Below are positions 21,529 to 53,217 of a stretch of 64,000 nt of DNA, in pieces (positions within the stretch are counted from its first letter, which is position 1; each line of letters starts with the position of its first letter). The stretch lies in assembly GCA_004347685.1 (NCBI GenBank), contig SLTJ01000046.1, positions 1-64,000 on the forward strand, in the 5' to 3' direction. The notes below the pieces were generated by a model. The model saw nothing but the letters and a program-made list of their open reading frames with translations, had not been told where the DNA came from and did no database searches. Source of the DNA: Clostridia bacterium (GTDB lineage: Bacteria; Bacillota; DSM-521; Neomoorellales; SLTJ01). The translations under genes were made by a program, and so were the position numbers.

Positions 21529-22152
21529 GTGCAGTTGGAAGTTTTGGAGGTGGGGCCGGCGGCCGCCAATTGTTACCTGGTTATCTGCCAGGTGACCGGT
21601 CGGGCCGCGGTAATAGATCCCGGCGGTGAGCCGGGGCGGATTCTGGCGGCCGTAGAAAAACATAAGGCGCAGGTGGAGTATATCATAAACACCCACGGCC
21701 ATGCCGACCACATTGCCGCCGACGCGGCCATCAAGGAAGCCACCGGCGCTCCCCTGTTGATTCATGCCGAGGACGCGGCGTATCTCACCGATACCCGCAA
21801 GAGCCTGCTCCTTTACCTGGGCCAGGATAAGGCCGGGCCTGAGGCTGACAGGTTGCTGGAGGAAGGGGACATAATAAACATCGGCGCGGAGGTCACCCTG
21901 GAGGTTTTGCATACCCCTGGACATACCCCCGGGGGTATGTGCTTGAAGGGCGAAGGGTTCGTTTTTACCGGTGATACCCTTTTTGCCGGCTCAGTTGGCC
22001 GCACTGACTTTCCCGGCGGCTCCTTCAGCAGCTTGATCGCCTCCATTCGGGACAAGCTGCTGCCACTGGACGATTCTACCCGGGTGTATCCCGGCCACGG
22101 TCCCGAATCTACCATCGGCGTAGAAAGGGCTACCAATCCCTTTTTGCTGTAG
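21529..22152 (+). CDS. MBL-fold metallo-hydrolase (glyoxalase II-like)
   Basis: A 207-residue metallo-beta-lactamase fold protein with the metal motif NTHGHADHI, a further His in HTPGHTPGG, Asp in FTGDTLF and the final His in YPGHGPES. Small members of this branch hydrolyse thioesters or act as persulfide-related enzymes; the substrate is unknown here. GTG 21529 with GGAGGG 7 bases upstream gives the family-like start MQLEVLEVGPAAANCYLV; frame upstream to 21487 is open. Lies between dtd and hisS as in many Clostridia. Confidence 0.9.
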   Translation: MQLEVLEVGPAAANCYLVICQVTGRAAVIDPGGEPGRILAAVEKHKAQVEYIINTHGHADHIAADAAIKEATGAPLLIHAEDAAYLTDTRKSLLLYLGQDKAGPEADRLLEEGDIINIGAEVTLEVLHTPGHTPGGMCLKGEGFVFTGDTLFAGSVGRTDFPGGSFSSLIASIRDKLLPLDDSTRVYPGHGPESTIGVERATNPFLL

Positions 22153-27844: not shown

Positions 27845-28032
27845 ATAAGAGTGTACCCTGCAGTGTGCGTGGGGGTTAGCACAATTGAGCCAACACCAAG
27901 AACAGGGACCTGGGCTCTGGATGTGGCTTGCAGGCCCCGGTAGGGGAAGCATAAAGCAATCAGGAGGGTCCCACTCGCGTGAGAGCGGGTTCAAGCTTGG
28001 GGGCTTCCACGGCATCTGCGGGGTACTTTGTG
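27845..28032 (+). ncRNA. ssrS: 6S RNA (SsrS)
   Basis: The closing stem pairs GTACCCTGCAG (27853-27863) with CTGCGGGGTAC (28016-28026), continued by GTGCGTGG/CCACGGCA. The interior has the long imperfect-hairpin form of 6S RNA with a central bulge near GGCTCTGGATGTGGC. In Bacillus subtilis 6S-1 RNA lies in the aspS-rarA-cymR-iscS-mnmA neighbourhood, exactly the order here, with a promoter in front. 6S RNA mimics an open promoter and holds the sigma-A RNA polymerase. Ends are approximate. Confidence 0.75.
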
Positions 28033-28068
28033 TGCTTACCAGTTAGATTAGAAACATCGGAGGTTAAA

Positions 28069-28347
28069 GTGCCTGCTTCCTATGCCAGCTCAAAGGATGA
28101 TCTCTTGCACCGGCTACGCAAGATCGAGGGCCAGGTTAAGGGTCTGCAAAGGATGGTGGAGGAGGAAAAGTATTGTGTTGACCTGTTGGTGCAAATAGCG
28201 GCCGCCAGGGCCGCCCTAAACAGCGTCGGCCTAGTCGTCCTTGAGCACCACACCCGCGGTTGTGTTCGACATGCCATAGAGAGTGGCAACGAGGTGGAAG
28301 AAAAGATCGAAGAACTGGTGGATGTATTGCGCCGGTTCATCAAGTAG
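28069..28347 (+). CDS. csoR: CsoR-family metal-sensing repressor
   Basis: A 92-residue all-helical repressor (DUF156). With the GTG at 28069 the ligands fall at Cys36, His61 and Cys65, the C-H-C copper(I) set of Mycobacterium CsoR, with Tyr35 and Glu81 also in the expected second-shell places. SD GGAGGTT lies 4-5 bases upstream; an open frame back to 27979 runs through the 6S RNA and is rejected. No copper exporter adjoins it. A CsoR-type palindrome lies at 52528-52544, before the radical SAM operon, and may be one of its targets. Confidence 0.9.
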   Translation: MPASYASSKDDLLHRLRKIEGQVKGLQRMVEEEKYCVDLLVQIAAARAALNSVGLVVLEHHTRGCVRHAIESGNEVEEKIEELVDVLRRFIK

Positions 28348-28466
28348 CCTTACGGGCATGAGCCTTAAGGCCAGACCGAACGGCAACACGCCGCCCGGTT
28401 GCGCCGGTGCCGGTACCCCGGCGGCTGACGGCGCCACCAGCGGAGGAACAAAAACGGTGGGCGCCA

Positions 28467-28497
28467 ATCCCACCTCCCACTTCCCACCTCCGAATTT
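28467..28497 (-). repeat. Purine-rich GGAGGTGGG repeat, minus strand
   Basis: On the minus strand this reads TTCGGAGGTGGGAAGTGGGAGGTGGG, the same word style as 31-93 and 5568-5602. It lies in the csoR-thioredoxin gap, which holds no gene. Confidence 0.45.
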
Positions 28498-28529
28498 CAG
28501 GGCGGGTGCCGGTAAAAGAGGTGCAAATA

Positions 28530-28868
28530 GTGGCTTCTTCCTTTCCTTACGTTAGTCCTGAAACTTTTACCAGCGAGGTTTTAGCGGCAAAGGGTCTGGT
28601 ACTGGTAGATTTTTGCGCTAGTTGGTGCGGTCCGTGCAAAGAAATGATGCCGGCCCTGGTGGAAGTGGCCCGGGCGTATAACGGTAGGGTCAAGGTGGTT
28701 TCGCTGGACGTGGACGAAGCTGGCGCCCTGGTGGAACGGTATAGCGTGCGCTCGGTGCCAACCTTATTATTTTTCCAGCAGGGGCGTCCTGTCTATCGCC
28801 TGACAGGTTACCAGGTGGCCGAAGAAATAAGCCGGCGGATTGATAATTTGCTGGTGGCCTCGGCTTAG
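28530..28868 (+). CDS. Thioredoxin-family protein
   Basis: A 112-residue thioredoxin with the complete active site ASWCGPCKEMMPAL and the cis-proline loop VRSVPTLLFFQQGRPVYRLTGY. It reduces disulfides in the cytoplasm. GTG at 28530 is preceded by AAGAGGTG at 6 bases; GTG 28521 is an alternative. The frame extends upstream to 28407 through low-complexity proline-rich sequence that looks non-coding. Confidence 0.9.
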   Translation: MASSFPYVSPETFTSEVLAAKGLVLVDFCASWCGPCKEMMPALVEVARAYNGRVKVVSLDVDEAGALVERYSVRSVPTLLFFQQGRPVYRLTGYQVAEEISRRIDNLLVASA

Positions 28869-51015: not shown

Positions 51016-51035
51016 GAGGCCCCTGGTGGGGCCTC
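51016..51035. terminator. Shared stem-loop between pfkA and the peptide gene
   Basis: GAGGCCCC (51016-51023) and GGGGCCTC (51028-51035) form a perfect 8-bp stem with a TGGT loop. On the minus strand CTCCTTTTC follows; on the plus strand the T content is low. It lies 8 bases past the stop of the 20-residue peptide and 25 past pfkA, so it can serve both. Confidence 0.75.
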
Positions 51036-51042
51036 GTAACCT

Positions 51043-51105
51043 TTAGCATGAGGCATGGCACTTGCACACGGTTGATTGGCGCTTGCTGAGCTTTTTTAGC
51101 TGCAC
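51043..51105 (-). CDS. 20-residue Cys-rich peptide, probable RiPP precursor
   Basis: Reads MQLKKLSKRQSTVCKCHASC and stop. The first 12 residues are basic and Cys-free, like a leader; the last seven, CKCHASC, hold three Cys and one His, like a core. The GTG lies 8 bases after a full AGGAGG (51119-51114), and the frame starts inside the last ten bases of the radical SAM gene, so translation is coupled. A terminator follows at once. Such a short gene next to a SPASM enzyme is the classic layout of a ribosomally made, modified peptide. The modification (thioether, other crosslink or metal binding) cannot be read. Confidence 0.7.
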   Translation of the reverse strand: MQLKKLSKRQSTVCKCHASC

Positions 51106-52295
51106 GTAACCCACCTCCTCCCCGGGGGGTCTAAGCCATACCGGTAGCATTGCACCGGATCTGGACCGAGGGGATCAAAGAAAGCCTCAGCGCGGTAACG
51201 GCAGCCGCCACGGCATTCGTCGCGGAAGGGGCACGCGCACCGCAGTTGCTCCAGGGGGATGCGCGGCAGTTCGAGCCAGGCTTCCCGCAGGCCCCTGGCC
51301 AGCGGTAGGCCGTGGGCGGAGTAGAACCCGCACTTCGCCAGCCGGCCCTCGGCGGTTACGGTGGCTAGGTGCGCGCCACAACTCCAGGAAGCGCCGGCCG
51401 CGGTGTAGTGGCCCCCACCCCGGCTGAAGCGGTTAATAACTGCGGCGGCGGTGGCCAGATCCGGCAGCAGGTCGCTACCGGTTGCCAGGCGGCCGGATGG
51501 AGAGGGAACATCAATATTCCACTCTTCTATGCCCCGGGCTGCCAGCATTCCCTCTAAAGCGGCAAAATCTTCTAGATTGTGGCGGTAAACCATGGTGGCC
51601 ACCGAAACCACTTTTCCGGCCTCCTGTAGGGCTTCAATGGCCGAACAAGCCCTTTGAAAGGTCCCGGGGCCCCGGAGAAAATCGTGCGCCCCTTCCAGGC
51701 CGTCCAGGCTGACCTGAACCGCGTCTACCTGGAGCCGGCTGGCAGCTTCCAGGTCAATAAGGGTACCGTTGGTAAGCAGCACCACCCGTAAATCATATGT
51801 ACTTAGGCGGTCGTTTAACCGCCAGAAATCACGGTAGAGAAGGGGCTCCCCTCCGGACAGGAGGACAGCCAGGCCCTGCATCTGCGCCAGCTCGGCCAGA
51901 AGCTGTTCCGCCTTTTCCAGGGGCAATTCTCGGCCTCTGCAGTCGCCCACGTAGCAGTGGCGGCAGCGGAGATTGCAGGCATCGGTAAGCTGTAGCTCTA
52001 GGTAGCGAAGCGAAGGCTGGGGAGCAGCCCCGGCAGATCCTGACCGGGGCCGGGGGAATTCCCGCCACTGCAGGATACCCTCGTCGAGAGCCTCGCCGGC
52101 AAACTCCATCTCCGCCGGCCGCAGGTTATCTTCCGCCACCCCGGTCAGACACCGCTGCAAGAACGCGAAGGTTTCCTCGTTCACCTCATACAGCTCGTCC
52201 GTGGCCCGATTGTACACGCTCAGATTTTCCAGGCGTTTTAGCCCGCAGTCGGGGTGCAGTTGTAGCCACCTAGTCGCTGACGGCACGGATAACAT
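51096..52295 (-). CDS. Radical SAM/SPASM peptide-modifying enzyme with PqqD-like N-terminus
   Basis: A 399-residue enzyme. Residues about 10-75 look like a PqqD-type peptide-recognition domain (LHPDCGLKRLENLSVYNRATDELYEVNEETFAFLQRC). The radical SAM motif is CNLRCRHC (Cys107, 111, 114), followed by LSGGEPLLYRDF. The C-terminal SPASM part has many Cys (SWSCGAH, LAKCGFY, CACPFRDECRGGCRY, VQCYRYG) for two auxiliary clusters. ATG 52295 overlaps the preceding gene; GTG 52286 is possible. Related SPASM enzymes also act in heme and mycofactocin synthesis, but the tiny Cys peptide directly after it argues for peptide maturation. Confidence 0.88.
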   Translation of the reverse strand: MLSVPSATRWLQLHPDCGLKRLENLSVYNRATDELYEVNEETFAFLQRCLTGVAEDNLRPAEMEFAGEALDEGILQWREFPRPRSGSAGAAPQPSLRYLELQLTDACNLRCRHCYVGDCRGRELPLEKAEQLLAELAQMQGLAVLLSGGEPLLYRDFWRLNDRLSTYDLRVVLLTNGTLIDLEAASRLQVDAVQVSLDGLEGAHDFLRGPGTFQRACSAIEALQEAGKVVSVATMVYRHNLEDFAALEGMLAARGIEEWNIDVPSPSGRLATGSDLLPDLATAAAVINRFSRGGGHYTAAGASWSCGAHLATVTAEGRLAKCGFYSAHGLPLARGLREAWLELPRIPLEQLRCACPFRDECRGGCRYRAEAFFDPLGPDPVQCYRYGLDPPGRRWVTCS

Positions 52296-52494
52296 CCTCG
52301 AGAGAAATTATCTTTTTGCTCAGCAATCGCTTCAGCACCGCCAGGGCATTACACTCAAGGCTCCGTTCATCATCGCGGAAAAACTGGCAGTCGCGGCAGA
52401 AAAGGTCAACACACTCTGGCCCGCCAAGATAGGCCGCATCGCTGGCTGTTGCCAGGCGGGGGGCACTGGCCTTCAAGTGGGCAAAATCGGCCAC
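52270..52494 (-). CDS. 74-residue four-Cys protein heading the radical SAM operon
   Basis: Cys at 28, 33, 36 and 48 (CVDLFCRDCQFF..LECNAL) suggest a zinc or Fe-S site, and the C-terminal 25 residues (ALAVLKRLLSKKIISLEDVIRAV) form a likely helix pair. I do not recognise the family. GTG start 7 bases after AAAGGGG. Its end overlaps the start of the radical SAM gene by 26 bases, and it is the first gene after the operator and promoter at 52528-52579, so it is part of the system: perhaps a partner, sulfur or electron carrier (inference). Confidence 0.7.
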   Translation of the reverse strand: MADFAHLKASAPRLATASDAAYLGGPECVDLFCRDCQFFRDDERSLECNALAVLKRLLSKKIISLEDVIRAVSD

Positions 52495-52527: not shown

Positions 52528-52544
52528 ATACCCCTGAGGGGTAT
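52528..52544 (-). promoter_or_regulatory. CsoR-type operator palindrome
   Basis: ATACCCCTGAGGGGTAT is a 17-bp palindrome, perfect apart from the central base, located just after the -10 of the operon promoter. CsoR, CstR and related repressors bind ATACCCC-GGGGTAT-like sites. Binding here would block transcription at its start. A csoR gene is present at 28069; whether that protein acts here is an inference. Confidence 0.7.
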
Positions 52545-52550
52545 GTAGAG

Positions 52551-52579
52551 ATTATACCTTATCCCGCGTGGTTCGTCAA
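52551..52579 (-). promoter_or_regulatory. Promoter of the radical SAM operon
   Basis: On the minus strand TTGACG (52579-52574), 17-bp spacer and TATAAT (52556-52551). The -35 lies in the last codons of the small gene 52559-52705. Confidence 0.85.
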
Positions 52580-52974: not shown

Positions 52975-53044
52975 TTTTTGATTCACTGCCTTTTCTGGTA
53001 CCACTGGAAGGTACCCATCCATGAAAACCGCTGCATGGAAATTT

Positions 53045-53088
53045 TGGTAGCCCTACGGGGATTCGAACCCCGGTTACCGCCGTGAGAG
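53045..53088 (-). repeat. 3' half of tRNA-Glu(CTC): attachment-site fragment
   Basis: The minus strand reads anticodon loop CTCTCAC, stem GGCGG, TAAC, T-arm CGGGGTTCGAATCCCCG, acceptor strand TAGGGCT and ACCA. This is the second half of a tRNA-Glu with CTC anticodon. Upstream there is no D-arm, no 5' acceptor strand and no good CCGCC stem, so the gene is cut at the anticodon loop. A perfect 14-bp palindrome GGCTACCGGTAGCC (53089-53102) abuts the break. Confidence 0.85.
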
Positions 53089-53217
53089 GGCTACCGGTAG
53101 CCGAAAGCCTTGTCACTACTAGGTTTGCGGCCTTTTCTCCCCTTCAGGAAGACCGTCATTCGTGTTTTGCATGTTATTTATTCGCCCCATTTTAGCAAAT
53201 TCCTGCTCAGACCAGAG

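Follow-up and report, generated by a model that had tools for sequence, protein, structure and literature searches.

Copper-handling peptides of ribosomal origin have been described from several enzyme families. Bufferins/oxazolins are Cys-based peptides that respond to copper excess and are made by MNIO enzymes (PMC12452194), methanobactins are small ribosomal Cys peptides that bind copper (PMC3621798), and noursin is a His-containing copper-binding lanthipeptide (PMC10206099). Copper efflux is governed by the repressor CsoR, whose operators have the form 5'-TACX9GTA-3' around G-tracts (PMC3902906). In the literature that we searched for links of radical SAM enzymes to CsoR, to copper homeostasis or to copper binding (subscription journals lay mostly outside its scope), the copper RiPPs came from either MNIO enzymes or lanthipeptide synthetases, and we found no description of a radical SAM-made copper RiPP. 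Here we analyzed a locus in a 64,000-nt stretch of a genome assigned to Clostridia (hereafter the window). Judged by its sequence, this locus would work like a copper-buffering RiPP; among the named families tested, which include the bufferins, the methanobactins and SCIFF, it is a member of none. Bufferin precursors carry Sec signal peptides and depend on MNIO enzymes, whereas this locus encodes a radical SAM enzyme and a peptide with no apparent signal sequence. Methanobactins function in the uptake of copper and depend on a different family of enzymes, whereas the presumed control by CsoR here points to copper excess. Noursin, a product of a lanthipeptide synthetase, is unrelated to this cluster in both enzyme and peptide. 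The locus shares a radical SAM core, a SPASM-like set of Cys and an adjoining gene for a Cys peptide with the sactipeptide and ranthipeptide maturases (SkfB, StsB, SCIFF/CteB, PapB), but differs from these systems by its 20-aa peptide, its copper operon, a C-x-C in the SPASM part and scores far below the family cut-offs. Finally, it has the operator, repressor and P-type ATPase of CsoR-copA efflux operons, with a 4-Cys protein/radical SAM/peptide module that is either additional to such an operon (in the second genome described below) or a separate operon (in the window).

On the minus strand, from position 52494 to 51016, the window encodes a 4-Cys protein, the enzyme and a 20-codon gene, followed by a terminator (Table 1). 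The earlier note had described a 63-base gene with a full AGGAGG that overlaps the end of a radical SAM gene and adjoins a terminator, and all of these elements were found (51043-51119 and 51016-51035). The 5' end of the peptide gene shares 10 bases with the 3' end of the enzyme ORF. An in-frame ATG at 51150 would yield an alternative reading of 35 aa; the second genome decides in favor of the 20-codon start, as its ATG aligns with the GTG of the window and its frame also has 20 codons. The peptide has a basic N-terminal part and ends in CKCHASC, with three Cys and one His in seven residues, and its pattern was present once in the window genome. We infer that the presumed precursor has the basic part (xKKxSKRQSxx) as its leader and CKCHASC as its core.

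Table 1. Positions of the candidate copper RiPP operon and of its presumed regulator in the window.
Feature	Position	Strand	Remarks
Sole CsoR-family repressor of the window genome	27979-28347	+	YC...HHTRGC Cys-His-Cys; real start probably within the ORF
Intrinsic terminator	51016-51035	-	GAGGCCCC-ACCA-GGGGCCTC, then CTCCTTTT; hairpin 3' of the peptide gene
Candidate peptide (precursor) gene	51043-51105	-	GTG start, 20 codons and TAA; product VQLKKLSKRQSTVCKCHASC
Shine-Dalgarno sequence of the peptide gene	51114-51119	-	AGGAGG; inside the enzyme gene; 8-nt spacer to GTG
Radical SAM enzyme ORF	51096-52295	-	399 aa; PF04055, CNLRCRHC, 7-Cys C-terminus
4-Cys protein	52270-52494	-	74 aa; conserved C-x4-C-x2-C-x11-C; 55% identical to the G135 counterpart
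CsoR-type operator	52528-52544		ATACCCCTGAGGGGTAT; core TAC-X9-GTA; just 3' of the -10 box
Sigma-70 type promoter	52551-52579	-	TTGACG-17-TATAAT; 11/12 consensus match

The search of 399 genomes of the phylum identified an ortholog of the enzyme in a single genome other than that of the window. This genome (G135), which belongs to a different class, presents the same gene order. Its enzyme (L011 1504-2670) is 48% identical to the window enzyme over almost the full length (388 bits), and the next-best match scored 111 bits with the radical SAM core alone covered. We then ran a profile built from the two sequences against 398 genomes drawn anew from this phylum, and it again returned G135 and no other; both draws are samples and overlap each other. 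The cluster is carried by two genomes out of about 400 sampled. In G135, copA is followed after 27 bp by the gene of the 4-Cys protein, which overlaps the enzyme gene by 17 nt, and the peptide gene lies 54 bp further, with the Shine-Dalgarno AAAGGAGGTG where the window has AGGAGG and with a hairpin and a T run on its 3' side.

The comparison of the two peptides, MKIKKVSKRQSNLCKCHASC in G135 and VQLKKLSKRQSTVCKCHASC in the window, revealed 14 identical residues out of 20, including all seven of the C-terminal CKCHASC, and SKRQS of the basic part is conserved as well. Substitutions in this frame are mainly silent (pS 0.68, pN 0.15), and identity reaches 75% in the frame vs. 22-23% (ungapped) in the flanks, which is the level expected by chance. 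The longest exact word common to both downstream regions is CKCHASC itself (7 aa), whereas 300 shuffles reached 5 at most. The earlier note had predicted a short Cys frame downstream of homologous enzyme genes, and such a frame is indeed present in the one true ortholog. It had also named a lack of Cys conservation over neighboring bases as evidence against its reading; the three Cys and the His are invariant in G135 and the flanks are at chance level. These patterns indicate that the peptide and the radical SAM enzyme are a real conserved pair and that the peptide core is under purifying selection. The RiPP reading of the pair is likewise supported by the conservation of a short ORF beside the enzyme, in the same order in two classes.

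Outside this pair, no comparable short frame was found downstream at the 34 other radical SAM loci that we examined (heme-pathway and other families). The pattern CKCHxxC-stop was detected in 12 of the 399 genomes, including the window genome and G135. The ten other matches presented no SKRQS-like sequence upstream and their translated frames were unlike the peptide, and they were taken as chance occurrences. No radical SAM gene was present at the six of these loci that were inspected (L055, L059, L061, L062, L063, L065), where L063 and L065 share sequence with L064 and L066, and L056 and L060 were left out of the ORF inspection. Neither the enzyme ortholog nor the peptide was found in the plasmids and viral contigs searched. 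A scan of genome contigs with the single protein returned remote relatives only, and its exact 8-mer patterns would miss G135 too. Coverage beyond the phylum consisted of this one exact-8-mer contig scan, the plasmids and the viral contigs.

The enzyme belongs to the radical SAM superfamily based on its PF04055 match (E 5.8e-24) and its CxxxCxxC motif, CNLRCRHC, at residues 107-114. Seven C-terminal Cys (C306, C322, C353, C355, C361, C365 and C383) follow the SPASM order and are conserved in G135. The SPASM label given by the earlier note thus agrees with the order of the Cys, but C-x-C (353/355) takes the place of the usual C-x2-C and a match to the Pfam SPASM family (PF13186) was unreported. 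The true start is probably the GTG at 52286, since this start restores the 17-nt overlap with the upstream gene found in G135. The same note had assigned a PqqD-like N-terminus. The N-terminus weakly matches NF038044 (actinodefensin-associated protein B; E 7.5e-5, below the cut-off), which we take to be a PqqD-like family, and there was no Pfam PqqD match; it may be a PqqD-like leader-binding domain (RRE). An AlphaFold model of the enzyme, computed from the window sequence without alignment, was poor (pLDDT 36.6). None of the best matches listed reached the NCBIfam cut-offs (SCIFF, PapB ranthipeptide, Skf, StsB, mycofactocin, NirJ/Ahb), and the best score among them was 98.9 vs. a cut-off of 525 bits. 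The StsB and PapB models scored 86 bits (cut-off 625) and 51 bits (cut-off 340), respectively.

Alternatively, the peptide could give rise to a small cofactor that is excised from it, in the style of PQQ or mycofactocin, and that would serve a copper-related enzyme. A very short precursor, a PqqD-like N-terminus and an invariant core fit such a role, and the enzyme is distantly similar to the mycofactocin maturase model and to PqqE. We regard this as quite improbable: the similarity does not go beyond what radical SAM cores share in general, the peptide lacks the Glu-Tyr or Val-Tyr of the PqqA/MftA type, and no dehydrogenase or peptidase genes were noticed near the cluster in the window genome or in G135.

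The closest relative of the enzyme with a solved structure is SkfB (E 1.8e-18, profile positions 103-252). SkfB is a bacteriocin maturase, and one could therefore propose that the peptide is a secreted antimicrobial of the sactipeptide type that is incidentally controlled by a metal. In G135, two ABC genes of NHLP-type bacteriocin export (TIGR03796 and TIGR03797; L047 915-5806) lie upstream of the copA operon, with a terminator-like hairpin in between. These genes would suit a bacteriocin, but they are set off by that terminator-like sequence and are absent from the window locus. The conserved cluster, as shared by the window and G135, contains no exporter or immunity gene, and the core is invariant across distant genomes. 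This makes a bacteriocin very unlikely.

The 4-Cys protein matched no Pfam or NCBIfam family, and weak matches elsewhere (E 6e-4 to 0.009) were judged not credible, two of these loci having been inspected. Its structure model, also built without alignment, was weak (pLDDT 54.3). The protein may be a partner, a (metallo)chaperone or a (second) substrate of the enzyme. Its gene adjoins and overlaps the enzyme gene in both genomes, which leaves room for an enzyme that targets another substrate, such as the 4-Cys protein or a copper protein, while the peptide acts unmodified as a mini-metallothionein or copper carrier. Indeed, CxCH...C is by itself a good set of Cu(I) ligands, and the context is one of copper. 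We consider this reading rather unlikely, because maturase and precursor genes are usually arranged in this way, with a tiny peptide encoded right behind a SPASM-like radical SAM enzyme, and because SKRQS in the basic leader part is also conserved, as if it were recognized.

Several lines of evidence link the operon to copper. The earlier note had pointed to a CsoR-type operator, and the promoter of the operon indeed contains a perfect match to the TAC-X9-GTA core, as in sites of the CsoR regulon. Across the whole window genome, we counted six TACCCC-N1-6-GGGGTA palindromes. The X9 spacing is found in three of them, one each in the promoter of this operon, the copA promoter (contig C7) and the lgt promoter (contig C17); about 0.31 sites of the strict form TACCCC-N3-GGGGTA are expected in this genome. 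In the remaining three, the spacing is X7 or X8, and no promoter was noticed at any. One of these, a second palindrome of the window (21923-21938), was rejected as an operator based on its X8 spacing and its position inside a hydrolase-like gene. The CsoR of the window carries the Cys-His-Cys signature of Cu(I) sensors, as does that of G135, and is presumably the trans-acting regulator of the operon. In G135, the cluster stands at the end of an operon with copA, the copper ATPase gene, and this operon apparently consists of a promoter with the CsoR-like site TACCCCCTATAGGTA, a 53-aa GGCCGG protein, copA, the 4-Cys protein, the enzyme and the peptide. Since its X9 operator is shared with copA, the sole CsoR is of the copper type and the cluster is linked to copA in G135, the window operon most probably answers copper excess rather than starvation.

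Other genes were observed around these sites. The 53-aa protein of G135 (L047 6248-6409), first gene of the copper operon, contains HGSGGGCCGG and a His-rich tail, and no family was matched. In the window genome, copA and the gene of a small membrane protein have on their 3' side the gene of a 406-aa protein (L048 2617-3837, contig C7), which carries hemerythrin-like motifs and whose end is PAS-like. In both genomes, lgt (prolipoprotein diacylglyceryl transferase) also has an X9 CsoR-type operator on its 5' side, either directly ahead of the gene (window genome, contig C17, L049 6706-7611) or with two small genes in between (G135, L052 5373-7541), and lgt seems to belong to the copper regulon. 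In the window, a thioredoxin-like gene comes immediately after csoR (both within 27979-28868), and csoR of G135 is also near a thioredoxin-like sequence.

The earlier note had left metal and persulfide binding side by side. Its persulfide half corresponds to a system under CstR-like control that answers reactive sulfur, with thiols that handle persulfide. CstR and CsoR have a common type of operator, and the csoR genes lie beside (window genome) or near (G135) thioredoxin. We find this highly improbable, as the Cu-binding His of the Cys-His-Cys is retained in the single family member, the same operator is found ahead of copA, and the cluster is inside the copA operon in G135. The metal half is supported, and the metal would be copper.

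We consider it fairly probable that the cluster is a copper-induced radical-SAM RiPP operon with a Cys/His core that binds Cu(I). A further proposal, to which we give even chances, is that it represents a new class, in which a radical SAM enzyme makes the copper peptide and which would parallel the bufferins without a need for oxygen; its precursor has 20 aa and an invariant CKCHASC, and it would be induced through CsoR at excess Cu(I). Under this copper RiPP model, CsoR bound to TAC-X9-GTA 3' of the -10 box would block transcription, and excess Cu(I) would free CsoR from the DNA and allow a three-gene transcript. The enzyme would then bind the basic leader xKKxSKRQSxx, perhaps aided by the PqqD-like domain and the 4-Cys protein, and modify CKCHASC, where a thioether or another radical crosslink is the most likely result. 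SPASM enzymes that act on Cys peptides most commonly form a thioether to a neighboring residue; the type of bond is unpredictable from sequence here, since the enzyme falls in no characterized NCBIfam family. The product would bind Cu(I) via Cys and His, and either buffer it or hand it to CopA. With its three thiols and one His, the seven-residue core suits Cu(I). The genes, their conservation, the operon structure, the CsoR sites and the linkage to copA are observed, and from these we infer the modification of the peptide by the enzyme, its chemistry, copper binding and the physiological effect. Because the conserved cluster has neither a signal peptide nor an exporter, an intracellular buffer or CopA donor is likelier than a secreted chalkophore. 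Two features of the cluster speak against the model. The conserved genes include no exporter or protease, and the induction of an Fe-S enzyme under copper stress is somewhat paradoxical, as Cu(I) damages such clusters.

If true, a radical SAM route would let bacteria without oxygen build their own copper-buffering peptides, and the roles of radical SAM RiPPs would extend past killing and signaling to metal homeostasis. The size of the peptide (20 aa) permits its synthesis and direct testing.

Finally, a sequence that resembles a tRNA 3' end, GGGGTTCGAATCCCC...CTACCA, uncalled by ARAGORN, was observed at 53040-53120 of the window (minus strand). Phage- or plasmid-like genes lie beside it from 53218 on, and it is possible that this is an attachment site.
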